From Syncephalastrum monosporum B8922 (lineage: Eukaryota > Mucoromycota > Mucoromycetes > Mucorales > Syncephalastraceae): DNA of 64,000 nucleotides. How positions within the stretch are numbered: the first letter of the stretch is position 1; each line of letters opens with the position of its first letter. Shown here in pieces: positions 1 through 19,517 of the stretch. The notes beneath the pieces are model-generated. The model did no database searches and had not been told where the DNA came from. It was given only the letters and a program-made list of their open reading frames with translations. The stretch covers positions 1 to 64,000 of the forward strand of contig JNEN01001212.1 of the NCBI GenBank assembly GCA_000697355.1. The letters run 5' to 3'. A program made the position numbers and the translations under genes.

Positions 1-720
1 ACTATCTACTCTATCCTATCCTCCGCGTGCATGATACCACTACACCATCCGGGCGTCACACTTGCTTCTGCTGTGTTGTAAAAATCTACACTTATTCACA
101 GCGCGTGGGGATTTTTTTTTTTTTTTGTTCTTTTGTTTATTCTTTTGCTATCTTCCATAGTCTACCCACTATCCACTGTACTGTACGCTATCCTTCGCGC
201 ACATGATACCACTACACCATCCGGGCCTCACACTTTTTTTCGGGTATGTTGTCAAAGTGTATACTTACTCACAGTGCGTGGGGAGTTCATTTGTTTTGCT
301 CTTTTTTTTTTGCTATCTTTCACGTTATAGTCACTATCTACTCTATCCTATCCTCCGCGTGCATGATACCACTACACCATCCGGGCGTCACACTTGCTTC
401 TGCTGTGTTGTAAAAATCTACACTTACTCACAGCGCGTGGGGAGTTCATTTGTTTTGCTCTTTTTTTTTTGCTATCTTTCACGTTATATTCACTATCTAC
501 TCTATCCTATCCTCCGCGTGCATGATACCACTACACCATCCGGGCGTCACACTTGCTTCTGCTGTGTTGTAAAAATCTACACTTATTCACAGCGCGTGGG
601 GAGTTTTTTTTTTTTGTTCTTTTGTTTATTCTTTTGCTATCTTCCATAGTCTACCCACTATCCACTGTACTGTACGCTATCCTTCGCGCACATGATACCA
701 CTACACCATCCGGTGTAGGG
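1..720. repeat. Tandem satellite, about 5 units of 159-172 bp
   Basis: A conserved core containing CATGATACCACTACACCATC recurs at about 30, 202, 362, 521 and 691, so the unit length alternates between about 160 and 170 bp. The difference comes mainly from T-run length and from two unit subtypes: CTCTATCCTATCCTCC before the core, or GTACTGTACGCTATCC. The array probably continues to the left of the window and stops near 720, where the last core is truncated. Overlapping ORFs across it are simply repeat translated and are not proposed as genes. No unique spacers separate the units, so it is not a CRISPR. Subtelomeric or centromere-proximal satellite is possible but not shown. Confidence 0.9.
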
Positions 721-779
721 TGCGTAAACCGACTCCATATTTTTTTTTTACCTTCCTTTTCTTAATTTTTACACACCTC

Positions 780-3180
780 TTGTCGTGATGAAGACAGGAC
801 AGGACAGGACAAGACAAAGGGGGAAGGATTACAGGACTAAGACGGGGTGTTAGGCACTACTCTACGCCTCCAGACAAGGTACATACCGAACTGAGGATTA
901 TATAACAAAGATCGAGACAATACAAGGGATATATGCCACAGTAGACAGGAACTATTCTACAGGAGATTATATATCAAAATCCTTCGTCTTTACAAGGGTC
1001 CAGGGACATACGAGGCAACCAGAAACAAGAAGCAGTAAGCAAGTAGAGCGAGCGAGATGTGACTCTACAACTGGAAGCGAGGTAGACGGATACAAAGATA
1101 CAGACAGAGATTCAGGACTTGGCTTGCACGAGGATCCTTAAGGGACTTGACAGAGACAAGACACGAGACAGAGACAAGAGGGGACTAGGAGAGAGTATGG
1201 CAAGATAATCTGATAATATATTTGATACAAAATAGAAGACTATTTATACGGATGATGATGAATTGGAAGGTGGACGGAAAAGGTGCTTGCTGTGATATGA
1301 AAAAGGGAATGTTATGAATGGATGTGTAAAGGGGAAATGGTAAAAGAAAACAACAACAATGCAAAGGAAAGGAAGTATGCGTCGAAACGGGAAGGTGGTA
1401 CGACCATAGCTTGGTGATCGTGTTTTAGTCGTGACACCTCTTTACTTTCTTCACCCCTTTCTACTTTTTTACCAACCCTTCTAATTTTCTACGTACCATC
1501 GTACTTTTTTACAGACCATTCTACTTTTTCATCAGTCTTTTTACTTTTCTCAAATCTTTTCTTTTATTTCTTAAGCCAATACCGCAGTATCATATTTTTA
1601 TCCATTAGTTAATATAGGCTTCAGTTCTTGGCCCAACGAATAAATTCAGACTTGACTTATCAGACTTTCACTTCGACTTTACTTTCAGACTATCTTTACA
1701 TACTCTCTGATACGTTTTTGCGCCAAAGCCGCACTCAGTAATACGTCTCTGTTGGTTCTCATTGCAAGTCACCACCGAAAACACCAAGTTGCAACCTCGC
1801 CATTTCGACATTGCGAAACCTTTTTTTTGACAAATTCTGTCCCTTTGATTTATTTCTACGCTTCCGGACCTCTTCTACATCACCTCTTTCACTCTTTACC
1901 TTTGTTTTCTTTCACAAGCTCTCATATAGCTTGGTTTTACCCTTTTTCTTTTTCTTATCTTTGCAAAGCCACATTTATAAGTTTTGCTGGTGCTCATTGC
2001 GACATTATGTCATGACTACACCTCGACATGCAGGTCCTCATGCATGTATGCAGAGTGACATGTGCAAAGTATAGCTTCAGCACATGACCTGTATATTCTG
2101 CCTCTGACGTCCATGCTGTCCCTGTTTCTTTCGTGTTCCTCGCACATTGTTCCTCTCTGTTGTCTCTGCTGCCTTCCTGCCTCTCCAGCGTGTATTCAAC
2201 GCTCTTCCAACGTTGACCCGCTTCTCTGTTGCTTCTTCCTTCGCTTCCTGTTGTCTCTGCCCATGTCGTTTATTGTTCTATCGTAGTATAAATACCAGTC
2301 TAATTAAATAATAAACGACATCGAATTATCTTGTTATCATCCTTACTCGTACGTTGTCCTTTGTCTCTAGGTCCCTGTTACCTTTCCTCGGCGTCTTCCT
2401 GGTCTTGTCCTCGATCTTAGGATCATTCTTGTTTTAGACTCTTAGTCCTTTTGTCTCTAGTTCTCAGTACTAGTTCTGTTCTCCAGTCCCGTCTGGTTTC
2501 CCTTGATCCTACCTCGCTTGCATCCTTGCCTTCCTGTCTTGACCTCCCAGTCTTGTCTTGTTCCTGTTCTGTCCTGTCCGTTCCTATTCCCTGTTCCCAA
2601 CTTGGATCATCTCTCACCTCACATCACATCGCGCAACGCATTCCAACTCTTGCAACATATATAATAGTATCTATCCTCACACAACAAAAAAAAAAAAAAA
2701 ACCCCGCACCGCATGTTCCTCTTTTGTTACCTTATCACCTCTATTTCATTTTCTTCTCTTAACCTCGTACGCGTTAAACACATATCCTGTGGTTCGACTC
2801 GGTGATCATTACGAACGATTCCATATCTACCTATTCCTCTTTTTTAAAGCTTACCTACTACAAGACCACCGTCACACCATGTTTTTCAATTTTCCTGCAT
2901 CAAACACCACGGGTTGGATCTGGATATCTGCCTCCTGGAGCCGTATATCGGGATACAGAACGTGCCGCACATTTGGAGTGATAGTATTAATAATAGTAAA
3001 AGAAAAAAAAAAAAAAAAAAGGTCCTGCAGCCGTACCCTGGCAGGACGTGCAGGACAAGAGACAAAGGTGATCTACACAAAGAACACATATTGAAAGGCA
3101 GGTGGATATATAATGCCCAACTTCGCGACGGCTCAGGATGGATACGGCTAGCATACATATTACATGGTAAACCATGACAT
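780..3180. other. Strand-biased gene-free tract, possible long LTR
   Basis: From about 790 to 1210 the + strand is purine-rich (GACAGGACAGGACAGG and similar). From about 1430 to 2620 it becomes strongly pyrimidine-rich. Long A or T runs occur at 2686-2700 and 3002-3020. No ORF in it resembles a protein. It ends directly at a sequence that looks like a retroelement tRNA primer-binding site (3181), so part of it could be a long terminal repeat. The second LTR that would prove this was not found in the window. Confidence 0.3.
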
Positions 3181-3198
3181 TGGCGCCCGAGGATGGGC
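3181..3198 (+). other. Candidate retroelement primer-binding site
   Basis: TGGCGCCCGAGGATGGGC begins with TGG (complement of tRNA-terminal CCA) and follows ACAT. This is the arrangement expected just inside a 5' LTR ending in CA. TGGCGCC-type sites complementary to tRNA 3' ends are common in Ty3/gypsy and retroviral elements. No intact gag-pol follows, so any element here is decayed or solo. The matching tRNA was not identified. Confidence 0.4.
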
Positions 3199-3404
3199 TG
3201 AAAAAGAAGCCTTTTTACTTCGTTTGCGGTGACTCCATGGGTAAAGCTGGCAGAGGAGGCAAAAATATATTGCCAACAAGATATTCATGTGAGTAGACTA
3301 CATGCTACTTTCAGGTTTTGATGTGAAAGAGGCTATTCGTGAATAAAACTGGCACGCCTGTGACCAAAGATAAAAAGAAACGCAATAAATGAGATATACA
3401 TCCT

Positions 3405-3600
3405 AAAAGGCCTCAAAAGACAAAAAATGGCATGGGGAGCTGGCCCTACCTTTTGGGCCTCTAAAAGGCTATTGGGACCCTTTTGGACCCTTTTGGACCC
3501 CTTTGAAGCTTTTCGAGCCCTTTCATGCCTTTTGCAGCCTTTTGAAGCCCTTTATATAACCTCAATTTTTTTTTTTTTTTTGCGCCTTTTGCACCCTTAT
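3405..3600. repeat. Degenerate CCTTTTGNNN short-repeat cluster
   Basis: About ten irregular copies of a 9-11 bp CCTTTTGG/GCCTTTTG word are packed between about 3405 and 3560 (for example around 3451, 3478, 3489, 3500, 3527 and 3538), followed by a T run. The same word appears in reverse complement (AAAAGGCC/CAAAAGGC) at 4970-5170. The short ORFs over it encode only the repeat and are not called as genes. Confidence 0.7.
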
Positions 3601-3639
3601 AAATCAATTGGACCTTTTCAAACTTGTGAACATCTCCCT

Positions 3640-4960
3640 TGTCAGATAACAATTATGTATTGCTTTTAAAACCTCATCTCTGCTGGGTTTGCCCTCAGTT
3701 CTCCTCTTCTGCTGAGTCATTTGCATCGCTATCATTATTTCTATCGTCAGTGTGGATAGTAAACATGTCTTGAAGAGTCACGCTGACGATCGTGCCACGG
3801 CACAAGCGCTCAACCTCCTGCGGTTGGATATGGATGGCTCGTTTCCAATCGATGTCATCTGATACAGGACTTTCGAACAGACTTGGGTACTTGCTTTTCC
3901 ACGACTACCTAGCTGAAAACTCCATGTCCTTCTTCGGTAAATCATTTTGATACTCCTTCCGGATACAAAAATGCATCTACCATTTTCTCCATGAGCCTCT
4001 AGTCTATACTGACCGATGCATGAAAGGTACTCACCATAACGTATGTAAAAGATACGTAATGCGTGCGCCACTTTTTTGTCATCCGCTCCGCATGAAAGCC
4101 TTGAATTGACTGCACCTCGAAAAAAATTCTTCAACCGTTTGGCGCCCACCAGACTTGTCATCTTCATCTGCCCTTATGCTAACTGGACTATGTTCGTCTT
4201 CATATATTAGAGAGCATCTTGGAAGCGCATCACATAACAACTCTCTTTCAGAAAGAAGAAATACAAACTTTTGCGACACCGGTACACTTCTTTTCTTTCT
4301 CCTGGGAGTCTTATTGCTGCTTTTATCTGCAAAAGCGCGTTCAGTCGTCGAGGACCTCTAAACTATGAGTAGCCATACCTTTTTTATGTTTTTGCGAAGC
4401 TCCTCCTTCTCTTTTATGTTCATTTGTGTCTCTTGGCATCTTGATAGCTTGAAAGTGAAGGTGTTTGACGATAAGAAGAAAAGGATCAATAAAAGGAGTG
4501 GGAAAAAAAGAAGTACGTTGCGCTTTATGAAATCTCATGCAGCTGAACTGGGCTTGGGATGCAAGCGCGTGTCGGTCACGCGTATTTTTCTTACCATGAA
4601 CCGGCAGGACGGTAGTCTCCGTACCATACCTTTAGAGTAAAATACCACTGGTAAACTCTCTTGTCTCTTTAGAACAAGAATGTACGTACAGTATGTTCTA
4701 TATGTGAAAATAACTTCAAGGCATCCGCCAGCGTCGAATAGCATTATGACAAGCCCCACATGGATAGTCAAATATCAACCGGTATCACACAATGCCTTTG
4801 GAAGGCAAGACGCCTTGACAACGAGCCTTTTACGAATGAGCGAATCAGAATGGGCAACACGGGACGATCTATGAGTAAATTGTTCTCCACTGCCATCTTT
4901 ATATCAATCAATGCCGAAACGAGAGAACAAAATAGGCTTATATGGCTCGTCTCACATCGA
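3640..4960. other. Gene-free stretch with short ORFs only
   Basis: Both strands hold short overlapping ORFs (best: minus strand, 4167 to 3778, 129 codons), none with a recognisable domain, signal or convincing splice structure. The stretch lies between two inverted short-repeat clusters and is most likely decayed mobile DNA. I see no RNA gene or promoter here. Confidence 0.4.
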
Positions 4961-4969
4961 TAATGGGGT

Positions 4970-5170
4970 ACTGGTCACTTGGGCCACATCAAAAGGCATC
5001 AGAAGGCATCAAAAAGTATGAAAGGGCGTAAAAGGTACAAAGTGCCTCAAAAGATATTGAAAGGCCTTGCAATGCACAGTGGAACCTCCAAAGGCCACAT
5101 AAGGCCTGAAAAGGCCTGATAAGATGTATGGGGACCCAAATGGCAAGCGGTAGTCTTTTCAGGCCTTGAA
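4970..5170. repeat. Degenerate AAAAGGCNNN short-repeat cluster, inverted mate
   Basis: Words such as AAAAGGC, AAAGGCC and AAGGCCTG recur about every 10-20 bp from 4986 to 5168. They are the reverse complement of the CCTTTTG cluster at 3405-3560, so the two clusters bracket about 1.4 kb as diffuse inverted repeats. From here to about 5690 there is only AT-rich sequence without a supported gene. Confidence 0.6.
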
Positions 5171-5694
5171 ACGCTCTTACAGTTTTGCTATGTATCTGTT
5201 AGATCAGCCCATAATGCACAGGTCTACACAGGCCAAGACAAACTATAGATAAAGCTGCATAGACTTACATGGCCTACACAAATCCTTTTTTTTTCTTAAC
5301 TATCTAGGCCTATACGTATAAGCTTATCCAGGGCTTTCTAGACTAGTACATTTCCTAGCTGGCCTACGTCGCGTGTCCCTCGAAAGCCACGTCTTATCTA
5401 TTTAGAATATCAAGTCTCCTTGCTAGACCCATATAGAGAGAACCCATATCACTCATGGAGTGACTCAAGGAATAATAAAAAAGAATAAAAAACTTCAAGA
5501 GGGCATGTGGACCATTAGATAAAGAGCTCAAACCATTGCGGCGGAAACCAAGCGCCCAGCTTTGATTTATTATTACTCGAGCCTAGTTCGCCAAAATTTA
5601 CCCTGATGAGCTTTGTGTTCTCTCCCTGGCATAAGAGTATATTGTACAAGAGATATGCGAAGGGGTTACTTTACAATGTGCATACAATTGGAGT

Positions 5695-6391
5695 ATGGCG
5701 AACAACAACCGTGCCGCGCAATCTACAGAAAAGAAAAGAACGAACGCTGGTGAAGGCGACCTAAGCCGACGAGCCCTAGTTAAGTTCCTTAGGGAACCGA
5801 AAGAATATAACGGACGCAATGAGCGACATCCCCGTGCTTGGATTAATCACCAAATATTCGCGGAACACTGTCTCTGCCACGGATGAACAGACAATCGTTT
5901 TGGCGGCCTCACACCTATCGGACCGAGTGAAGACATGGTGGAGAGTCCACGCCGAGTCATTGCACGATGGTTCGTGGACTAACTTAAAGGCCACATTTTT
6001 CATGCAGTTCTCCCCCGAGGGAGAACACCAATCGCTGGTGGCACGAAATCGAAACCGAGTGGCAACAGGAAGGAAAATTGTTGACGGCGTCGCGCTGGCC
6101 TTGAGCGAGCTTTTTACTTTGATTACCATACCAAGTCTGGATTATCGTTTGCGCGCGTTTGTCCGTTCCCTGGAGCATGCCATCGGTTACGAACCGGAGA
6201 GGATTACTGTCCTCAAGGATTGGGGGGCGGTGACGTCCGAAGCGTGGCGCATCGAAAAGGTGCTGAATAAGTACAGCACTGTCACCACCACAGCAGCCTT
6301 ACCGCAATCCCCATCGGGCACCACCGCCCACATCGTTAAAGAAGTACGGGCGATCAACCTGAATTTGACCAGGTCATTCGCCTTAACTTGA
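5695..6391 (+). pseudogene. Retrotransposon gag fragment, frameshifted
   Basis: Two overlapping + frames (5695-5886 and 5819-6391) together read like the N-terminal and central part of an LTR-retrotransposon gag. The second frame has the gag signature: an acidic/hydrophobic helix, then VKTWWRVHAES, then a W..L...F....F stretch. A frameshift near 5820 separates the two pieces. No zinc knuckle follows on this strand; a CCHC knuckle lies instead on the opposite strand just downstream. No protease, reverse transcriptase or integrase is attached, so this is a relic. The family call rests on pattern recognition of Retrotrans_gag-like features. Confidence 0.6.
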
Positions 6392-6906: not shown

Positions 6907-7023
6907 GACAATGTACCGAGATGTCAGGGACGGATTACGCTTTCTTCACAGCCGCAAGCCTACCGCCGCGCAGAACGATGCACCTCACGATCCGACGGTG
7001 GTGAACGCCACGGAGACCCCCAC

Positions 7024-7114
7024 TTTCGACAGCTTTGGAGCATTCTCGGTGGATCCACATAGAGGAATAGTGTAGTCAGCATACAGAGGCAGAGAAAAAG
7101 TAACACGAGAAAGC
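7024..7114 (+). repeat. Left arm of about 90-bp inverted repeat
   Basis: The + strand here (starting TTCGACAGCTTTGGAGC, passing TGTAGTCAGCATACAGAGGC and ending AACACGAGAAAGCTG) is nearly identical to the reverse complement of 8077-8168. By eye only a handful of substitutions separate the arms. The repeat resembles a transposon or LTR end fragment. About 960 bp without a supported gene lies between the arms. Confidence 0.85.
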
Positions 7115-8076
7115 TGATCTTCAAAATGATCCTCCTTTGGAAGAAAATACGCGCCGGGAGGGGGTGAGCGCAAGACATGAAGGAGCATATCAACCCGTTG
7201 CCTTCAACGCATATTTCAGCGAACGCTTAACAGATCTGGGTCATATCTCATTAGACACTTATTAGATCACCAGCCTTTCACCGGCTCAACCTTGGTCCAG
7301 CTTTCAGCTCATAACTTCAGCAAAAGCTGATCCGGGAACGGCCAACGTGCACGACTTTCAAGTTGGACCACAGAGGGACGGCATTGACCAAAGCGAACAT
7401 GAGAATCTGTATGATTAGCCTGGCTATCACACATCGCTCCCTGTTTCCTTCTTTTTTTTTTTCTTTTTCTTTTTAATACATCATGTTTATCTTCCAAAAG
7501 TTTACAGAACTATAGAATTGCGTTTATTTTCGATTGCTGGCTACAATATATGTTGCAGTAATTCACGAACAAGAAAATACGAGTCATGCAGATCCCACCT
7601 GAGCGCTGCTTGTGTAGTCAATAAATGCTCTACTCACCATGGTAATGTCACTGCTATTCAAACATTTGAAAAGGGTTTTAAAAAAGGAGATTATACGGCG
7701 AACTCTGCTATTTTATACTTTGGCTGAACGAACGGTGTTGCCATTTGCCATGCCAAGGCCAGAATAGAGTGGTTTCTGCATTCTTGACCAAAGGACCAGA
7801 GAAAGGAAATGGATGTGGAACAGATGATTTAAGGATGTGCACATGGAACCGCTTAATTTTGTACTATGCTACCTGAGAAGCGAACGAAATGGCCTACATG
7901 AACCATGTGTTTCCAGCGGACTGCAGCTATAATGCATAATTGTTAATTGGGGCTCGCAAAGATAGGTATATCCAATTTTCATTCTTTTTTCTTTTGCTAA
8001 GTTTCTTTATACGCTTGTAAAGAGCAATTGCTCCGCTCAACCCCCTTGCGGCTACTATGCTCAGACTCGCTCCTGA
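7115..8076. other. AT-rich interval between inverted arms
   Basis: No ORF here has a recognisable domain. A T-rich run (7449-7474) and short ORFs on both strands are all I see. It may be the decayed interior of a small element bounded by the inverted repeat. Confidence 0.35.
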
Positions 8077-8168
8077 CAACTTTCTCGTGTTACTTTTTCT
8101 CTGCCTCTGTATGCTGACTACACTATTCCTCTACGTGGATCCACCGGGAATGCTCCAAATCTGTCGGA
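8077..8168 (-). repeat. Right arm of about 90-bp inverted repeat
   Basis: This is the reverse-complement mate of 7024-7114, with the shared core TCTGCCTCTGTATGCTGACT on the + strand. It is the younger-looking pair in this area, because identity is high compared with the more diverged direct copy at 8490-8700. Confidence 0.85.
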
Positions 8169-8489
8169 AGTGGAGTTTCATTTGACCTCACTCGGCAACT
8201 ATGCTATCGTGCTGCGCACGGTCTGTAGCCCGCTTTTGGCACCACATAAAGAAGTGTCATTCTTTATCAGCAAGGCCAGAGCGTTGGAGGTAGCGAATGT
8301 ACCCAGAAACCACTGCGTCCGTGTAATTTATTTTTTCTTTCGTGCTATGAGAAAGTGAGGAACTTACATAGCTACTCATATCTCATCATCTGTCTAATTT
8401 CACATTTGATATACTATGTCGTTTTCAAGGCCTGTAGTGAAGCAAGTCAATCTCATCTCGAGATATTTAAAAAAACCAATGCTTCGGGG

Positions 8490-8719: not shown

Positions 8720-10824
8720 ATTCTTCCTCTTACTGAATGAGCGTCCAGTAATATATCTCTCGGTCGATTCTGTTCTTTACTGAGTTGTCGGCATTGCTAT
8801 CACGAAACAGCTTTTGATAACGCACTAGGTAGCGCTCCTTATCTGAGCTGTTGCTGTAGTGGTTATTCGATGGAGAGAGCTGAAGAAGGACTGTGACGTA
8901 CACAAAGGCTTTTTCACACATTTGATCATGCGTAGTTACTCGTCACCGTAATGAAAAAATGAAGTAGAGGGGGGATAATGCTGAGCTGCGTAGACAAAGA
9001 CAGTTGATTTCATAGAATGCATATCATTCTAAAAATAATAAGACTAAAGAAGTCAGCATTTCTTCGTAACATATGTGTATAGATGCATATTTTCTTGATC
9101 AATGAGAAGGTGAGCTCTCGAAGGTAAGCGTGCCGATGATGATTTTCATTTCATAGACTATGAATACATGATGTACGAGAGCTTCAAAAGTAACACAAGG
9201 AAACCATTATGCGAAATCGCGTTGGCTGAGAAATGTCCTTTGCATAAAGAAAAAAAGTACTCAATCACATAGTGGGTAGCACATTGCGAAAAAAGTGACA
9301 ACCCGTTAGCTCTACCCATCTTTCATTATCTCGGCAGGCGTATTCTTTATAGCCCACCTATCATACAGAGTGAGATCCAATATTTCTTATAAAAGCAATA
9401 CCCGGCGGTGACCATATACCCACGTTTTTCCATATTTTAGAAGCACTACTTACGTGTACGTATATGATATTGCTATCTCGACCCGTAATGCTAACGTATG
9501 TTTCTACACATATTATTAGAAAATGCAAGCTCAAGAAATCAACCTTAACCGCATTGTCAATGAGACAATTAGAGCCCGTTTCATCGAGTTCAACAACACG
9601 CTTGAGCATTATACCGAGGATTCGACTCGCTTTCTCTTCCATGAAGACATCGAAGACTCAGCCGAGAACCTTGACCGCGTTCGCAGCATCATGGAGACCC
9701 ATACCCGTGTTACAGACCAGCAGCTCCAGGAAGTCCTCAATCTCCGTCCCGCCACCCAGGAAAACATTGACGATACAACCTGGATCCTCTATATGCGCAG
9801 CTGGACCATTCCTCCCAACACCATGAGCCGCCTCCTGGCAGAATGGGAGGATATGCACGAGTTTCCTGAGACTGAAGGCTGGCTCAACTTGGCCAGGGAG
9901 TTTGATGATGAGCCAATGCACCTTCGTTATGTTGGTGTCGTCACCGGCCGTGCAGCCATCGAGCGCCATGAGGAGGACTGCAACCAGGCCTACGGCATCC
10001 TTGGGCGCTTTTTGAATGGACTTCAGGCGATCGACCAAGCAGCCTTCGACGGCGCGCGCATCTATGAGTTCGCGCGCCGCAACACGACTGAAACGCCAAC
10101 GCACGTGCGCGAGCTTATGGAGCGAATCGGTATCGCTTTCTTTGGCGTCGAGCGAGTCCTGAATGTCCAGCACGGCGGTTATTTGAATACCTACGAGCCG
10201 GATATTGCCACTATTCGAGTCCTGCAATCGTATGGAGCCGGCTTTTTCGGTGACTTCCGTCGTCAAGCTCTCACCGACGACAACGAGTATCATCGACTCC
10301 CAGTTGCCAGTCTCCAACCTTGGCTCGACGCTATCCAGCAGCAGTGTCAGACGATGCACTTGCCGTTCACCCAAGACTATCGAGAGATGATCCAAGATCA
10401 AGGCCGCCCCTGTTTGGTTCATGGACATGCAGTGCTTGTGATAGTAGGCTGCGACATTACGCGAGCGGAGTTCCAGCACACGCGACGGTATTTTGGCGGT
10501 GGGCGTGCTGGGACCTACACGCAGACAATTCTGGCCCGCCAAGAACAGCAAATCGAGGAAGGCTTCGCCGAGTATGACCGTGGTGACTTGGCGCTTGAGT
10601 TGTTCCCATTTATGAATCTGTTTCCGTGGTACAAGATTCTTGACACCATCGATGCGGCAGTTGGTCAACTCTCGCTCTATATGACCGTCGTGCAGCCACT
10701 CGTGATCGCCACCTGCTCATCAATCACCACGTCTGTCGCCTTCGCCAATTTTGTACACGCACGAGGGCTCAAGGAAGACCGGACGCCGTTCCTCGATTAT
10801 GTTGGCGTTCCTCAACTGGCATAT
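8720..10824 (+). repeat. Left arm of large imperfect inverted repeat
   Basis: The 5' flank and first about 430 codons of the 990-aa ORF are repeated in reverse complement at about 12655-14130. Matching landmarks are GAATGAGCGTCCAGTA (8737) with the complement at about 14113, TTTGATCATGCGTAGTTA (8922) with 13915, TTCTCGTTGATCAAG on the minus strand near 9110 with + strand 13800, and the ORF start (9523) with 13438. The arms differ by many substitutions and several indels, so the duplication is old. About 1.8 kb of single-copy sequence (the 3' half of the ORF) lies between the arms. Confidence 0.85.
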
Positions 10825-12495
10825 CACTTGAGTCCCGAGTGGCCCGGCAGCGACAATCCCGAGCCAGACTTTAGCCTCGCTGTCATCGTCGTTCCGCATA
10901 TTGACCCAGGCTATGAGCGATACGGCCGGCGCAGCCAACTGCTCAACAAGATCATAGAGCTTACATGGCTGATCACGACGTTGGTGGCAGAGATCGCTAT
11001 CGCACAGACCGTTCCTCGGCGCGTCCATGGTCGACGATTGGCGAGCCGTGACCGTGCGGTTGTGATGCAACAGACCTGGGCTCGTGTCGACCCAGAGTCG
11101 CAGCAGCTGGACGAACGCCTGCACGATGCACTGCAGGACCTTGGCGACTTGAAGACCGAGTTCAAGAGTGAGCGGCGCCTTGCTCACGACAACCGCCCGG
11201 CTCCTGACGCCCCGCTCACCAACGCGACACGTCGAGCACTCGTCGCTGCCGGTGAAGCCAAAATGCGGCGATACGAGCGCGCTGCGGGACCGCCGCGATC
11301 AGAAGAAAGAGTGGCACAAGTGACGCGTCTCTGGAGGTCAAACTTCCCGGCGCTCCACATGCACATCGACCGGACCCAGGAGCAAGACTGGCGCGAGTGG
11401 GCGGTCACTCGACTGCAAGGCACCAGCTACCTTGCAGCAGCCATGAGGCACCTTGGTGCGCAGGCGCACCATCCTCTCTTCAACGCACTACGGCAGTACC
11501 GTCCACCCGGTGTGGATTCGCAAGACGAGAGCTGGCTCGAAGACGACGATCATCTGAACCGAGCCAAGGCCTTGTGGGGTGAGGACATGAGGCAGTATCT
11601 CGACCCCCAGTTCTACGGGCCGCAACAGCAACGAGAACGTGCCATCCGGCGCTGGGGGGACATTGACCCGGATCTCTACACGCCGCGAGCTGTACTGGAA
11701 GGTATGCGCATCCACTGCCCCGAGACGTCTCCAGCTCTTGTCCGTTGGCAGGACGGCAATCAGGTGCGCCTCCTGCATTACCACTTTCCGCGCGCCGCCA
11801 TCCAAGGTGAAGACTATGAGGAGAGACTGATGCACCTTCGGTTCCTGCAAGGCGGTCTCGGGCTCGACCGTTCGAACGGTGAAGAGGTCGTCCACGACGG
11901 CACACGGGTGATCGCCACACTTGGCCAACTCCAAGCATCGAGCGACGCGCAGCACTGGATGCGCGCCTGGCTGCGCGAACGGGAGCGACTCAACCCCGAG
12001 GGACCGGAGGAGCACCGAGGAGAGGTCGAGGCCGTTCTGGCAATGTTCGAGAATGTGCCTGCCAACCGGCTACGCAACGCCCCAGGAAATGCAGCCAAGG
12101 ATTCGGCATGGGACAAGTTTCGCGATGGGAATATTTTCCAGACCGATGCGCTCTGGTTGCTGCGAGCCTATTTGAATCAAGAGTTTCCTCAGGGCGGGCG
12201 TATTCACCTGGCACCCACGGATCAGCAATGGCTTATCGACAACCCGCATTGGGTGCCCGAAGGTTGCGTGTCCCTGAGGGACAGTTTTGGGGAGTTCCTG
12301 GAGGCTCATTTGCACCCCAAACGACCTTACTGGCAAGAAAAGCTCCGCAAACTTAGCCTCTCCGCCAAAGATTTTCCCAAGAACATTGCCTTTCTGCGCC
12401 CGGGCAGCGAATCGAGGAAGCTACGATTTCAGTACGGGCGAAGCAAACGGCAGTTCGTCGTTATGGATATCACTGCACTTCCTCAAGCTCCTTGA
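9523..12495 (+). CDS. Intronless 990-aa protein, possible GIY-YIG-like nuclease
   Basis: This is an uninterrupted 990-codon ORF starting at ATG 9523, preceded by an AT-rich leader. I do not recognise the family with certainty. Residues about 85-220 carry a motif series in the order expected of GIY-YIG endonucleases: a WILY strand (87-90), RYVGVVTGR (135-143), a basic/His segment ERHEE (147-151), then LMERIGIAFFG with a candidate catalytic Glu at 200, and VLNVQHGGY ending near 220. Spacing between the first two motifs is longer than usual. Residues 300-430 are well conserved in the inverted copy; residues 500-600 are charged and helical. No signal peptide or transmembrane segment is clear. It is visibly more GC-rich than its flanks and has no intron, unlike the conserved genes of the window. 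Reality as a coding gene is likely; the nuclease call is tentative. Confidence 0.7.
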   Translation: MQAQEINLNRIVNETIRARFIEFNNTLEHYTEDSTRFLFHEDIEDSAENLDRVRSIMETHTRVTDQQLQEVLNLRPATQENIDDTTWILYMRSWTIPPNTMSRLLAEWEDMHEFPETEGWLNLAREFDDEPMHLRYVGVVTGRAAIERHEEDCNQAYGILGRFLNGLQAIDQAAFDGARIYEFARRNTTETPTHVRELMERIGIAFFGVERVLNVQHGGYLNTYEPDIATIRVLQSYGAGFFGDFRRQALTDDNEYHRLPVASLQPWLDAIQQQCQTMHLPFTQDYREMIQDQGRPCLVHGHAVLVIVGCDITRAEFQHTRRYFGGGRAGTYTQTILARQEQQIEEGFAEYDRGDLALELFPFMNLFPWYKILDTIDAAVGQLSLYMTVVQPLVIATCSSITTSVAFANFVHARGLKEDRTPFLDYVGVPQLAYHLSPEWPGSDNPEPDFSLAVIVVPHIDPGYERYGRRSQLLNKIIELTWLITTLVAEIAIAQTVPRRVHGRRLASRDRAVVMQQTWARVDPESQQLDERLHDALQDLGDLKTEFKSERRLAHDNRPAPDAPLTNATRRALVAAGEAKMRRYERAAGPPRSEERVAQVTRLWRSNFPALHMHIDRTQEQDWREWAVTRLQGTSYLAAAMRHLGAQAHHPLFNALRQYRPPGVDSQDESWLEDDDHLNRAKALWGEDMRQYLDPQFYGPQQQRERAIRRWGDIDPDLYTPRAVLEGMRIHCPETSPALVRWQDGNQVRLLHYHFPRAAIQGEDYEERLMHLRFLQGGLGLDRSNGEEVVHDGTRVIATLGQLQASSDAQHWMRAWLRERERLNPEGPEEHRGEVEAVLAMFENVPANRLRNAPGNAAKDSAWDKFRDGNIFQTDALWLLRAYLNQEFPQGGRIHLAPTDQQWLIDNPHWVPEGCVSLRDSFGEFLEAHLHPKRPYWQEKLRKLSLSAKDFPKNIAFLRPGSESRKLRFQYGRSKRQFVVMDITALPQAP

Positions 12496-12654
12496 GCGTG
12501 TATTATTGCCTGCAGGTCTCTTTTCCCTTTTCTTCCCTTCCCTTCCCGCCCCCTCCTCATAGACCATACATATACTTTGAACATTTTGTTGTTTCAATTA
12601 AAATCAATACTCTCATCCACTGTATGTAACCGCGCAATATTATGAGTATTAATG

Positions 12655-13438
12655 CGAGTTGAGGAACGCCAACATAACCAAGAAACGGGATCCGGTCTTC
12701 CTTGAGGCCTCGCGCGTGTACAAAACTGGCAAAAGCGACCGACTCGGTAATTGACGAGTACGTGGCATCGATAGCGTCAAGAGTCTTGTACCATGGAAAC
12801 AGATTCCTAAATGGAAGCAGCTCAAGCGCAAAGGCACCACGGTTATAGTCGGCGAAGCCTTCCTCGATTTGCTGCTCTTGACGGGTCAAAATCGTTTGCG
12901 AGTAAGCCCCAGCACACCCACCGTCGAAAAAGCGACGCGTATGCTGGAGTCCCATTCGCGTAATTTGTTGCTCGTCATCATATTTTTGTAGTCCCTCTCA
13001 GAGAAGCACAGGAAGAAGGTACGGTCGGAGCAGACAACCACCCGCATGACCATGAACCAAACAGGGGCGGCCTTGGTCCTGGATCAATTTTCGATAATCC
13101 TGGGGGAGCAGTAAATTCATGGTCTGACACTGCTACTGGATAGCGTCGGGCCAAGGTTGGAGGTTGGCAACTGGGAGTCGAAGATACTCGTTGTCGTCGT
13201 TGAGAGCTTGACGACGGAAGTCACCGAAAAAGCCGGCTCCATACGATTGCAGGACTCGAATAGTGGGCGGGACGGAGACTGAGGACTTCCTCGAGCTGCT
13301 GATGTGTAATACGGGTATGAGTCTCCATGATGCTGCGAACGCCGTCAAGACTCTCGGGTGAGTCGAATCCTCGATATAATGCTCAAGACTGTTGTTGAAC
13401 TCGATAAAATGGACTCTAATTGTCTCATTGCTTGCATT
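12655..13438 (-). pseudogene. Deleted, frameshifted copy of the 990-aa ORF
   Basis: On the minus strand the start ATGCAAGC (13438) is followed by recognisable pieces of the left-arm gene: codons about 9-35, 50-76, 229-300 and 315-433. There is a 28-nt deletion after codon 3 and a 31-nt deletion between two GACTC words. A 456-nt deletion between GCCAC words (left-arm 9751 and 10207) removes residues 77-228, the whole GIY-YIG-like region. A CAG-to-TAG change sits near 13131. The part between about 12960 and 13060 is replaced by unrelated sequence. It cannot encode the full protein. It could still be transcribed and pair with the intact gene's RNA. Confidence 0.85.
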
Positions 13439-14130
13439 TTCTAATAATATATGTGGAAAGAGACGTTAGCATGACATATCGAGTAGTGCTTCTAAATTAT
13501 GGAAAAACGCGGGTATGTGGTCACCGCTGGGCATTTTTTTTTCTAAAAAATATCTGATCTCCTTCTGTTTCATAGATGGGTTATAATAAATTCGCCTCTC
13601 GAAATAATGAAAGTGGTGGTAGAGCTAACTGGTTCGTCGCTGTCTCGCAGTGCGTGACCCACTATGTAATTGCGTACCTTTTTTCTTTATGCATGAGACA
13701 TCCCAGCCAATTAGAATTCCCGCCGAATTTTCCTTGCAGTATGTACTCATAGTCTCTATATAAAGGCCATCATCGTAACGCTACCTTGGAGAGATCACCT
13801 TCTCGTTGATCAAGAAAGTATCCATCTTTATACATATGGTACGAAGGAATGCTGATTTCTTTATTCGTATTATTTTTAGAATGATACCCACTCTATGAAA
13901 TCAACTGTCTTTAACTACGCATGATCAAATGTGTAAAAAAGTCTTTTATGTACGGCACAGTTCTCTTCAGCTCTCTCCGGCGAATGACCACGGCAGCACC
14001 AGCTCGGATATGGAGCGCTTTCCAGCATCAAAAGTTGCTTCTCCGTGATAGGAATGCCGACAACACAGCAAAGAGCAGAACAGACCGAGACATATACTAC
14101 CGGACACTCATTCAGACCGAGAATAAGTGT
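12655..14130 (-). repeat. Right arm of large imperfect inverted repeat
   Basis: Read on the minus strand from about 14130 to 12655, this repeats the upstream flank and the 5' part of the 990-aa ORF. Homology stops at the sequence encoding VPQLA (left-arm position about 10,820). The flank (13440-14130) aligns with 8720-9522 through several shared words, so regulatory sequence was duplicated together with coding sequence. Confidence 0.85.
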
Positions 14131-14984: not shown

Positions 14985-16082
14985 ATGTCTCTTTCGACCC
15001 CCACCTCGCCTGCTGTCAGCACCGTTACCACCCCCAACCAAGCACAAGTCCCTCTGTTTTCCGGTTCTGTTCTGCCTCGGGCCAGCAAAGCCACCGAGGA
15101 CCCGGAGATGGGCGATGCCGCGCCTCTCCCCCCCAAGACTCGGGAGGATGACTCTGATGGTCACCACCCCACTTCCGTTCCGCAAATAGGCCAAACGCCT
15201 GCGGAAACTCTTGCTTTCCTTCAGGCCAAGACCAAGGAAGCAAGAGCAAACTTACAAATCTCCTTGGGTAGCCCCCAAAGTGAGTTCAAAAACGCTCAAA
15301 ATGAGTTCAAAAACGCTCAAAATGAGTACAAAAACGCTCAAAATGAGTACAAAAAGTGGAGCTCTCGTCTAGAGACGATGCAGCAACTAATGGATGAAGA
15401 AATATCCGAACAAAAAGAACCTGCTAAAGCAGAGACCCCGGGATTGAAGTTTGTCCCCGACAGTTTGCCTGTGTTTGTCCTAAGAGGTCAACCAGGTGTC
15501 AGAAAGCACCAAGCGGCTTATGATACGCCCGAACAATTTCTCGATGATTTTGAGATATCTGTCGAAGCGTACTTGGACATTGAATCCAACTGGCGCAGAC
15601 TGATTCCGTTGACGCACAATACAAAAGATCGCGTCATACTAAAAGATCTCCTGAAAGACGAAGATAAATCATGGGCGCAGTTCCGTAAGGACTTCTGTGA
15701 GCAGCATACGAACGTTTATCAAAAGCTACGCCTTTGGAGCGAGCACTGCAGGCTTCGCAAGAAGCCAGGCCAAACAATGCAGCAGTATATCAGACTGTAT
15801 CGCCAAAGTGCCGCACGCGCTGGTGTGCCTGACACTCCAAACCAAACCATGTTCTTCGTCTGCTCACTGGACGATGCGTGGCGAAAAGAAGCGTTCTGGA
15901 CAATGGGGATCCGTCTGGGTCCCAGATTGCCCCATAACTTTGCTGAAGCCTGTGAAATTCTTTTGGAGATGGTAAACGGAGGGGGAGGAGTCAGCCTTCC
16001 TGTTCAACAGTCCCAGCCGCCGAAGAGACCGCACGACAGCCAACACTCGGGCCCCTGCCAGCAGCGCCGCAGACTGAATTAA
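14985..16082 (+). CDS. Stand-alone gag-like protein, 365 aa
   Basis: This intact ORF begins MSLSTPTSP. The N-terminus (1-85) is Ser/Thr/Pro-rich. Residues about 95-130 form a heptad-repeat coiled coil built from KNAQNE units. Residues about 175-340 have the LTR-retrotransposon gag core pattern: AYDTPEQFLDDFE, then WAQFRKDFCEQH, LRKKPGQTMQQYIRLY, and a segment ending in FAEACEILLEM. The C-terminus is basic (QQRRRLN) and lacks a CCHC zinc knuckle. No protease, reverse transcriptase or integrase follows within 3 kb, and no LTRs were seen. It is either a truncated element or a domesticated gag gene. Its intact frame over 1.1 kb argues that it is recent or under selection. Confidence 0.65.
   Translation: MSLSTPTSPAVSTVTTPNQAQVPLFSGSVLPRASKATEDPEMGDAAPLPPKTREDDSDGHHPTSVPQIGQTPAETLAFLQAKTKEARANLQISLGSPQSEFKNAQNEFKNAQNEYKNAQNEYKKWSSRLETMQQLMDEEISEQKEPAKAETPGLKFVPDSLPVFVLRGQPGVRKHQAAYDTPEQFLDDFEISVEAYLDIESNWRRLIPLTHNTKDRVILKDLLKDEDKSWAQFRKDFCEQHTNVYQKLRLWSEHCRLRKKPGQTMQQYIRLYRQSAARAGVPDTPNQTMFFVCSLDDAWRKEAFWTMGIRLGPRLPHNFAEACEILLEMVNGGGGVSLPVQQSQPPKRPHDSQHSGPCQQRRRLN
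15284..15357 (+). repeat. 21-bp tandem repeat encoding heptads
   Basis: About 3.5 copies of a 21-bp unit (GAGTTCAAAAACGCTCAAAAT, with a TAC variant in the later copies) lie inside the gag-like ORF. Because 21 nt is seven codons, each unit adds one heptad, (F/Y)KNAQNE, to a coiled coil, and copy number can change without breaking the frame. Confidence 0.9.
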
Positions 16083-16359: not shown

Positions 16360-17393
16360 GTATGGCCGAAGAGTCGATATACGAGTGTCCCGAGATGCTG
16401 GAAGCTCGCCGCAAAGGCAGCATGCCTGTTATGGTTTCTCGCGTCACTGCCCGCACAAGCAACTTGCGCGTCGAAGATGGAGACTCCAAAGACCTTGACG
16501 ACGAAGCACATGGTCGGCTCTAATATATGCAAGCTCTTCGTTCATGCGCCGGCCTCTGCTGAACGACGTCGGCGTCTTATCACAGACGGTATACGGTACC
16601 CTACCCTATTTATTATATGGGTCCCAAAAGTCGCATTTTTGTTTCCAGGAACTTGCAAGTGTAAGTCTTGATTATGGTTACTCCTTGAATACATAAGAAC
16701 AAATACTAACGCTGAAGCATACCATTTAGAGATAACCTGGGTACATCAAAAGTATCGACCGACTATGGATATCTACGGAACACGTATCCAGAAAATGGTA
16801 AAGTCACCAAGACTTGCGCTTGGATTGAGGTAAAACAGCGCACGAGTGACCCTATTTTCCGGTCTTGTCCACAAGCACCTGGTGCAGGTCAAGTCCAGGA
16901 AGCGGGGCCATCAATGTTGGCCAATACGTTGGCCGCCAGTCTACCTGAGTAAGTGCTATCAGCTGACTGAGTATGCTTTTTTTTTTGCACTGATATACTG
17001 ACTTTTGACTTTTATACAGTCAAAATCATCGCGACGCTGAGCTTGTATCTCGTCGCGCACGCTTCCCAGTTGTCACCTCTCACGACCACTCACGACCTCT
17101 CACGACCTCTCACGACCTCTCACGACCTCTCACCCACCTCTCACCACCTCTCACCACATCTCGCCATCTCTCACCACCTCTCACCACCTCTCACCACCTC
17201 TCACCACCTCTCACCACCTCTCACCACCTCTCACCAACCTCTCACGACCTCTCACCACCTCCCACGACCACTCACCACCTCTCACCACCTCTGTCCACCT
17301 CTCACCACCTCTGTCCACCTCGGACCACCTCTGACCACCTCTTGCCACCTCTTGCCACCTCTTGCCACCTCTTGCCACCTCTCACCACTGTGA
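16360..17393 (+). CDS. Possible spliced gene running into minisatellite
   Basis: A protein-like frame starts at ATG 16360 (MAEESIYECPEMLEARRKG) and is open upstream to about 16187. It stops at 16522 unless spliced near 16511. A second open exon, about 16731-16948 (DNLGTSKVSTDYGYLR to ANTLAASLP), follows a good acceptor with a TACTAAC branch site just upstream, and ends at a GTAAGT donor. The intron 16949-17019 joins it to QNHRDAELVSRR, which then enters the 10-bp minisatellite. The middle junction is unresolved. I do not recognise the protein. It may be a gene interrupted by repeat expansion, or a relic. Confidence 0.35.
17071..17391. repeat. 10-bp minisatellite, TCTCACCACC type
   Basis: About 32 near-perfect tandem copies of a 10-nt unit (TCTCACCACC, with variants TCTCACGACC, TCTGTCCACC and TCTTGCCACC; a few units are 9 or 11 nt). 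Variants are grouped: TCACGACC units at the left end and TTGCCACC units at the right end, which shows local homogenisation. Ten is not a multiple of three, so each + frame reads the same 10-residue cycle (SPPLTTSHHL) offset in phase, and all three + frames are stop-free. Confidence 0.95.
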
Positions 17394-19517
17394 GGCTGCT
17401 CCGGGCTATCCCAGCTTCCCTTTTGGGGGAACTCGCCTTCCTTTTCCCCGCCAGAGTCAACCCAATCCGTCAGGTCGACCCAATCCTCTTTCTACCCGTA
17501 AGCCGCAAAGACAGACATCGCCTAATCAAATGACGTCTGCACTGGCTCTCGCCGTCCCCCCTCAGCCCCTGCCGCTGTGGATCTACTCCAGCCGTGACAC
17601 GCTCCCACTATCAGACTTGCCCCAAGCTCCAGCCTCAGCTGTCGGCACTTCTCGACGCTTTCTGCCACACTCGACCCAACCGCCCCGACATTCCCTTAAA
17701 CAACAACTCACCCCGCCACCCTCTTCGACGAAGAAGACCCTCTCTTCGACCTTTCCGCAGCTCTAGCGCTGTCTCCATCCTCCTCCCGGACATTGCTCCC
17801 ATCCCCAGCCCACTAATCATCCACTTAGTCCCATTTAACATGGGGTTTTAATGGAAATTCCTCCCACACCCGACCGCGAAGGAATTGCAAAATATCTACA
17901 CGGTCATTGCATCTCCATTGCCCCTTTTTAAATACATAATAAACATTTGAACTACATAATCAAGACCTTCCATGGGCTTACCAATGACTTTGGGGCAAAC
18001 CCATGTCGTTGGATCATGGTGCTTAAGAAGGTTTATGGAACCTCTGACCATAGGTGAGGGAATTACTGCACTCTATGATGCCTTGATAGGCGATTATAAC
18101 GACGCGCTTTTTTCAGCCTTGGCTAATCAAAACTCGGTACTACGACAAAAGACGTAAGTGCTGCCGATGGAGCACATTACGGGTGCGCGTGCAACTGAGA
18201 ACCGTTTGGGGGGGGGGGTTAAGTGATATAAAGACCAAGTTGATGAAAAAGAAAAAAAAAAGAAAGGAAGATTGACATGAGTATCTATGATAGATCGTCA
18301 CTTGGCAATTATGACGTCCTGTGGCAACATCATTTGTATTTAGTAAACATGAAAAAAAAAAAAAAAGAATCGGTTCTCGATGTACTGCAAAAAGTACTCG
18401 GTGCTCTTACGGGCAGTCAAATAGCAGAAGGGTTAGTCTTGTATTATGTTCAGTTTATGGATATACACAATCCATTACATGTTTAGATGCTGCGCTAGCT
18501 ATCGGATCAAAATGTCATATTATTGAAAATAGGATAGCTAACAGTTTCACTATATGGGACGTGCACCATCGTGTACGTCAGGATGACCAGGGTGTTGCTC
18601 ACTTTCTCCTCGCCTGTTTGGTCGAAAGTCGCGAGTTTGGGGTGCCTTGGTAAGTCATTTCGACGATCATCCATATCAGTCGTACTGAGAGTTTTACCTA
18701 GAGCAATGAAAGAGGTACTTGTACTGCGAATTCGACCGCAATTGATGCTTCTTTTTGAGAGCTCTGAATTCAGACGCGATCCCAAACTGACTTTTCGATA
18801 CTAAATCGTAAGACAAGTTAACCTAATGAAACGTACATCTTCAAGGTAGCTCGTATACCGCCTGGCAAAGATGATGGGTCACCTTGACACGATCATTAGC
18901 GTTTTTCGGAGGGTACTTTAGGTGGGAATACGACTTTGCTTCGTCACCTCGTCCCATGTCTTGCAATGCACCATCGAGACACACCAAAAGCGACAGGCCT
19001 CTGTATGTCAAAGGAATACGAGAAGGATGCTTCGAAGAGAGAAGATAGAAGAGAGACCAGGTTTTTTTTTGCAAATCAAAATGGATAAAAACGTATGCAC
19101 AGCTCCTTATGTATTCCGATAACCGCATGCGTACAAAAGACACACAGCTCCCAGTGACCAGGAGCGGAAGTAAAATGTCATACTGCCAAGGTATGCGACT
19201 GACAGCACTCAGATATCAATGAGACGAGAAGAATACTCTGCCGACGGACGAATAATAAGGGCTGTGAATCTAGGTCATGTTGCTGTGTTGGCATGACGAG
19301 ATACGAATACGCGAAAAAAAAATTCAAGACGAAGGCATGTCGTTTCTTTGATCCAGCCAGTCTGTGTCCGTGGTATCGTGATATCGTCGCATCGTCCTGT
19401 CAATATAATAACGTCGTGTTCGACAAATAGGTTGTCCGTAAAGTCTGCTGAGGTGAACAAGGACAAGAGTGGATTGTCTACAAACGGAGAGGGTGGTTTA
19501 TTGCGCAAAAGATGTAA
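17394..19517. other. Intergenic, no convincing gene
   Basis: After the minisatellite come proline-rich short ORFs on the + strand (to about 17850), AT-rich sequence, a G run (18209-18217) and A runs (18249, 18353). Short ORFs at 17972-18157, 18321-18653 and on the minus strand 19143-18841 lack domains. I see no RNA gene. Confidence 0.4.

Follow-up and report, generated by a model that had tools for sequence, protein, structure and literature searches.

What kind of protein is encoded by a long gene without introns that lies in a repeat-rich part of the genome of Syncephalastrum monosporum B8922 (Mucorales)? The window analysed here is the first 64 kb of contig JNEN01001212.1 (designated C142), from a genome of 27.5 Mb assembled in 198 contigs. 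The gene is an uninterrupted open reading frame (ORF) of 990 amino acids (aa) at positions 9523-12495 on the plus strand, exactly where an earlier note on this sequence had placed it. The note had proposed a stretched GIY-YIG nuclease layout in the N-terminal part of the protein. Judged from the sequence, residues 86-226 (9778..10200, plus strand) rather likely represent a divergent GIY-YIG-type nuclease domain with a helical insert. The ORF belongs to a multicopy nuclear gene family in a Syncephalastrum-like mould, of which it is the intronless and uninterrupted member.

Signature residues of the GIY-YIG-like domain

The protein encoded in the window (W) was aligned with the spliced proteins of family copies on contigs C150 and C24, which are 24% and 28% identical to W, respectively. 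Of the 651 columns filled in all three sequences, 83 are invariant. Y90, Y136, G138, R148, E200, and N214 are among them, and all six lie inside the short strings singled out in the earlier note, which were located at residues 87-90, 135-143, 147-151, 198-207, and 212-219. N214 is the sole invariant Asn of 23, and R143, an alternative Arg in one of the strings, is not invariant. When residues of the same types were drawn at random, six invariant positions were obtained in 9 of 200,000 draws from residues 1-260 and in 1 of 200,000 from the whole protein. The motif reading is strengthened by this result, as residues picked from one sequence are invariant across three deeply diverged groups.

Members of the GIY-YIG superfamily are characterized, in PMC1564403, by GIY and YIG boxes, a central Arg, a Glu, and often an Asn, on a fold that combines three strands with three helices; the Asn of motif E is optional, and members with insertions are included in Table 1 of that paper. 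Y90 (9790..9792, plus strand, as are all parts of the domain) is the candidate tyrosine of the GIY box and is followed by I/M-R-S/T, the Gly of this box being absent. A segment predicted to be helical, residues 97-131 (9811..9915), is inserted between the GIY-like and YIG-like boxes; its length varies between the family groups, and helices are modelled in it. The YIG-like box itself, Y136-V137-G138 (9928..9936), is read as RYVG or RYAG and has the expected features, with Y136 and G138 invariant. R148 (9964..9966) is the candidate arginine of motif B. E200 (10120..10122), the candidate metal-binding glutamate of motif D, is found in W, C150, C24, and also in P0001, a relative from Syncephalastrum racemosum described below, and is not readable in the decayed copies on contigs C76 and C49. 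The candidate motif E with its GG tail, N214-x3-G218-G219 (10162..10179), is invariant and places the Asn 14 residues past E200. The tail E-x3-I-x9-N-x3-G-G is common to 5 of 18 real GIY-YIG domains, with the same spacing, and all five are from phage T4.

All patterns were written after the sequences had been seen. The core pattern alone is not rare, because an earlier, looser form of it is matched by 75, 98, and 74 of 5,000 shuffles. A longer, still loose pattern is matched by 4 of the 18 real GIY-YIG domains. Among 887 open stretches, each 80 aa or longer, taken from the window, ten family regions, Escherichia coli, and T4, the longer pattern recognized 11, namely seven of the family (two of them identical duplicates) and four T4 GIY-YIG stretches. 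When W, C150, and C24 were shuffled 100,000 times each, the loose pattern turned up in 25, 20, and 7 cases, respectively, and its strict form in none. As far as the sequences go, the YIG-Arg-Glu-Asn-GG spacing matches that of the Seg-type domains of T4. The T4 proteins compared (L144, L145, and L147-L149), here called Seg-type, were picked by the Pfam profile PF01541. The domain is delimited by invariance, spacing, and pattern, together with the order of elements in low-confidence structure models.

Profile and structure comparisons

Several results weigh against this assignment. PF01541 matched none of nine family proteins, nor the family in its own genome, although its targets were found in 6 of 6 records and in 12 of 14 controls. 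Alignment of the family domain in hhalign with 18 GIY-YIG domains, taken all together or as Seg/I-TevI, YhbQ, and UvrC sets, gave nothing, and in a profile-profile comparison with insert columns removed the score was reached by 4 of 60 column shuffles; profile confirmation of the GIY-YIG reading was therefore not obtained by either route. The three proteins have spacings of 46, 49, and 82 residues between the two tyrosines, and the domain has about 140-175 aa, against a typical domain of about 100 aa in which the two boxes stand near each other. The window and C24 domains are acidic, and the C150 domain is not. AlphaFold models are of low confidence, with mean predicted local distance difference test scores (pLDDT) of 45.6 from one sequence and 57.2 from two sequences. 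In fold searches with these models, no GIY-YIG protein was among the matches listed, which were weak and mostly ferredoxin-like.

The structure prediction proposed in the earlier note for residues 80-230 thus yielded low-confidence models only. Both models, poor as they are and with no GIY-YIG protein among their listed matches, run strand, helices, strand, helix, strand, helix, with E200 placed at low confidence in the last helix. This modelled order agrees with that expected for the three-strand, three-helix GIY-YIG fold as outlined in PMC1564403. Neither of the outcomes that the note had named as fatal, a confident structure lacking the core or a match to an unrelated conserved family, was obtained. 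The family is not filed here as a confirmed GIY-YIG member, but its N-terminal domain resembles a GIY-YIG nuclease domain and probably acts as one.

In such a domain, the helical segment of variable length would be inserted between the GIY-like strand with Y90 and the YIG-like strand with Y136 and G138, and R148, the metal-binding E200, and then N214 would follow the latter. The domain would cut or nick nucleic acid, presumably DNA; its active site would include the two tyrosines and R148, and E200 would bind a single metal ion. The 760-residue C-terminal part may choose the substrate or a partner. Copies of the gene could be spread by duplication of DNA segments in repeat-rich regions.

Coding status, selection, and composition of the ORF

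An in-frame stop is located three bases ahead of the codon preceding the ATG. The start codon is supported because P0001 begins with the same MQAQ. This shared start, together with codon-position bias against the copy on contig C122, marks the ORF as a full-length family member. Differences between the ORF and the C122 copy are distributed 43:27:80 over codon positions 1:2:3, and they comprise 69 synonymous and 69 nonsynonymous codons (four of them to stop) and five frameshifting indels. The excess at third positions indicates that selection has acted on the protein and that the ORF has been constrained accordingly. The corresponding ratios are 10:11:32 against the copy on C183 and 26:25:41 against the inverted copy of the ORF in the window. 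Comparisons inside another group of the family (group B) have a similar bias (15:12:31, 44:38:83, and 67:56:140), and that between C150 and C44 is weaker (33:26:47 and 12:6:13). The bias is lowered by decay of the partner copies.

The G+C content of the ORF is 0.576, and 0.399 and 0.485 in its left and right 1-kb flanks, so the ORF is visibly richer in G+C than its surroundings, as noted earlier. This does not make it distinct in the window, where four other coding ORFs have G+C contents of 0.554-0.613 and third-position values (GC3) of 0.655-0.719, against a GC3 of 0.644 in the 990-aa ORF. As these are equally G+C-rich, the high value marks coding DNA; a foreign origin argued from base composition was rejected, the ORF lying within or near their range. 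Two of these four ORFs are long open stretches as well, with 715 codons (Kelch/BTB) and 825 codons (SH3), so that such length is not confined to the 990-aa ORF.

The C-terminal region, residues 227-990 (10201..12492, plus strand), has no recognized domain in sequence searches, where no family rose above the cut-off. For the whole ORF, scans of Pfam, NCBIfam, and PHROG gave no family above cut-off; the best Pfam match was Mod_r (E-value 0.44), and the best PHROG match, of unknown function, had an E-value of 0.06. A PDB sequence search with the ORF gave no match, and two family profiles gave chance-level matches only (E-values 2.1 and 1.1).

Relatives outside the genome

A search with the N-terminal alignment recognized one relative outside the genome, the hypothetical protein BCR43DRAFT_299891 (P0001) of Syncephalastrum racemosum, also a member of the Mucorales. 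Its alignment with residues 1-242 of the ORF has 181 identities in 242 positions (75%), with 123 of 155 identical at residues 81-235 and 48 of 75 at residues 6-80; by sequence, the putative GIY-YIG-like domain is the best-conserved part. P0001 has the same start and all six signature residues, but it is annotated with 275 aa. Its last 34 residues are left out of the alignment, so either the gene is truncated or it has been modelled differently.

Two whole-protein searches found no relative among the candidates scored, which had to be 0.55-1.75 times as long as the query and to rank among the top 7,996 and 7,988, respectively, in words shared with it. Absence of the family elsewhere in fungi is only weakly shown, because the searches were limited in this way. 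The family was not matched in viral contigs or plasmids. Text searches in PMC for GIY-YIG in fungi or eukaryotic elements, Syncephalastrum, Mucorales, and the locus tag recovered no paper on the family, judged from the listings.

Copies of the gene in the genome

Protein searches of the genome with three family members located copies on 13 contigs. The first 10 kb of contig C24 recur without a difference as the first 10 kb of C171, and C150 matches C158 at 99.99% identity along 9,793 bases; after merging of these, 13 distinct copies remain, in four divergent groups. Group A consists of the window ORF, its inverted partial copy, and the copies on C122 and C183, group B of two copies on C24 and those on C181 and C163, group C of the copies on C76, C49, and C94, and group D of those on C150 and C44. 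As far as seen, 11 of the 13 copies are truncated or interrupted, and two are open over the full length: the window ORF and the C150 copy, which encodes 1,076 aa with five inferred introns. Two introns are inferred in the examined part of a C24 copy, and one of them falls exactly where the window ORF reads PHIDPG-Y unbroken. The absence of introns from the window ORF thus stands as claimed, but it is not shared by all its homologues, since frames and GT-AG ends make introns the best reading of the C24 and C150 paralogues.

The copies on C76 and C49 match each other at 95% identity along 2.77 kb, and their left flanks differ. Both lack a readable Glu at the position of E200, beside a frame break, and therefore an already broken-looking copy was duplicated. 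A family copy lies within 20 kb of a contig end on 10 of the 13 contigs, or on 8 of 11 after merging of identical contigs, with C94 counted as not near an end. The chance estimates for this clustering, 4.5e-4 and 0.0032, respectively, presuppose that contig ends fall at random, and this does not hold for repeats. The clustering is ambiguous because repeats break assemblies at contig ends, and it may be an assembly effect. A telomeric position was considered for the copies, but four consecutive TTAGGG units were not found in the genome by a DNA search that skips simple repeats. Taken together, this is a scattered, mostly decaying, multicopy nuclear gene family, narrowly distributed in the searches made.

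Inverted duplication and repeat-rich surroundings

Eleven matched arm pieces, together 1,181 nucleotides and 86.5% identical, link positions 8733-10822 and 12652-14115 of the window in inverted orientation. According to this paired-piece comparison, the left arm (8733..10822, plus strand) holds about 790 bp of upstream flank and codons 1-434 of the ORF. The right arm (12652..14115, minus strand) repeats the 5' part of the gene, together with its upstream flank, in inverted orientation; this second copy is partial and broken by stops and frameshifting indels. The 3' half of the ORF is unpaired and lies between the two arms. Inverted flanks, named in the earlier note, are thus present, but they consist of a partial second copy of the same gene.

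Contig C24 bears a similar but divergent inverted pair of family copies, 92% identical over 2.08 kb. Its first 10,000 bases (L021) form an imperfect palindrome of about 10 kb that holds these two copies, with a shorter palindrome in its centre (4942-5131), and a repeat near the copies is listed at 40 places. On C181 (L024), a 612-base inverted repeat (99.7% identical, 1-612 and 5450-6061) begins at the first base of the contig and brackets the family copy; an ORF nearby at 1358-1882 resembles, by eye only, a Tc1/mariner-type transposase. In the window, gag-like ORFs lie on either side of the 990-aa ORF, at 5819-6391 and 14985-16082 (Retrotrans_gag E-values 5.6e-5 and 0.013, both below the Pfam cut-off). 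There are also a direct repeat array with a 10-base step at 17033-17427 and a 97-base inverted repeat at 7020-7116 and 8077-8173, 95% complementary and 960 bases apart. The contig start, positions 1-5000, is repeat-rich, with 71 matches listed elsewhere in the genome, many of them near contig ends. Scatter and decay of the copies, their position at contig ends, gag-like flanks, and repeats fit life in a repeat-rich region.

Alternative explanations

The GIY-YIG likeness could be coincidental, the domain having another alpha/beta fold, for example a ferredoxin-like one, in a rapidly evolving, lineage-restricted family without nuclease activity. Structure models of such low quality cannot be taken as evidence of another fold, and invariance at all six signature positions, the Seg-like spacing E-x3-I-x9-N-x3-GG, and the restriction of all 11 pattern matches to the family or known GIY-YIG proteins make coincidence unlikely. 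Another question is how the window copy lost or never had introns. It may have arisen by reverse transcription, as a processed copy of a family gene with introns, as it has no introns at the apparent C24 sites (after PHFHPG, before Y, and near the start). The inferred introns of the C24 and C150 copies stand at different places, which can be read for such an origin or against it, and absence of introns may be the ancestral condition. About 790 bp of upstream flank recur in the inverted copy, however, and a processed origin of the window copy is not very probable.

A selfish genetic element, whose protein cuts DNA and so promotes copying of its own gene in a homing-like or transposase-like manner, would account for 13 distinct, scattered, and mostly broken copies, for their frequent position within 20 kb of contig ends, for the close similarity of the C76 and C49 copies between different left flanks, and for the inverted pairs in the window and on C24. 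But no terminal repeats or target-site duplication were identified, no reverse transcriptase or transposase domain was found in the 990-aa protein, and no integrase belonging to the family was found. Duplication of the broken-looking C76/C49 copy needed no activity of its own, and contig ends are where repeats break assemblies. A selfish origin is accordingly rated as not very probable. The selfish or transferred nature suggested in the earlier note is not favoured, as the argument from base composition fails, an intronless structure is not common to the relatives, and movement of copies could be ordinary duplication. Quite improbable is the far-reaching version in which Mucorales carry nuclear, multicopy, selfish endonucleases of about 1,000 aa, with an insert-split GIY-YIG core and a 760-residue module, that spread by cutting repeat-rich chromosome regions and represent a eukaryotic GIY-YIG element without reverse transcriptase.

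The divergent GIY-YIG-type domain in a multicopy nuclear gene family is thus preferred. If it is a nuclease, a GIY-YIG-type domain missed by curated profiles is present in a large nuclear fungal protein with no reverse transcriptase, RING, ankyrin, or helicase domains detected alongside, and it would be a concrete enzyme for testing genome plasticity in Mucorales. If it is not, the family is still deeply diverged, multicopy, and narrowly distributed, with no recognized relative beyond Syncephalastrum in the searches made.

Comparison with known GIY-YIG systems

Among traits of other GIY-YIG proteins, neither the RING finger that follows the domain in Slx1 nor the ankyrin repeats or LEM domain of COG3680 / ankyrin-LEM proteins were found by Pfam in the 990-aa ORF, and no NUMOD family was reported in Pfam scans of it. 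GIY-YIG restriction enzymes, as summarized in Table 1 of PMC1564403, likewise have the domain stretched by insertions, and carry terminal extensions; they are bacterial. Penelope-like retroelements with GIY-YIG, as described in PMC1564403, are similar in having a large eukaryotic protein of this type in repeat-rich DNA; their proteins bear a reverse transcriptase, and no such Pfam family was found in the 990-aa ORF. Tlr8p of the Tetrahymena Tlr elements, also treated in PMC1564403, is likewise large, is encoded in repeated nuclear DNA, and has a GIY-YIG domain. In Tlr8p this domain lies at the C-terminal side (aa 1240-1340) and is accompanied by a helicase region, whereas that of the 990-aa ORF is N-terminal, with no helicase detected. 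The free-standing GIY-YIG endonucleases of the T4 Seg type are phage proteins of about 140-230 aa without a long insert between the boxes, unlike the nuclear fungal proteins of about 1,000 aa described here, and no similarity to them was found at the profile level. The YIG-like box, the Glu, the Asn, and N-x3-GG are nevertheless common to both, in the same order and with similar spacing.

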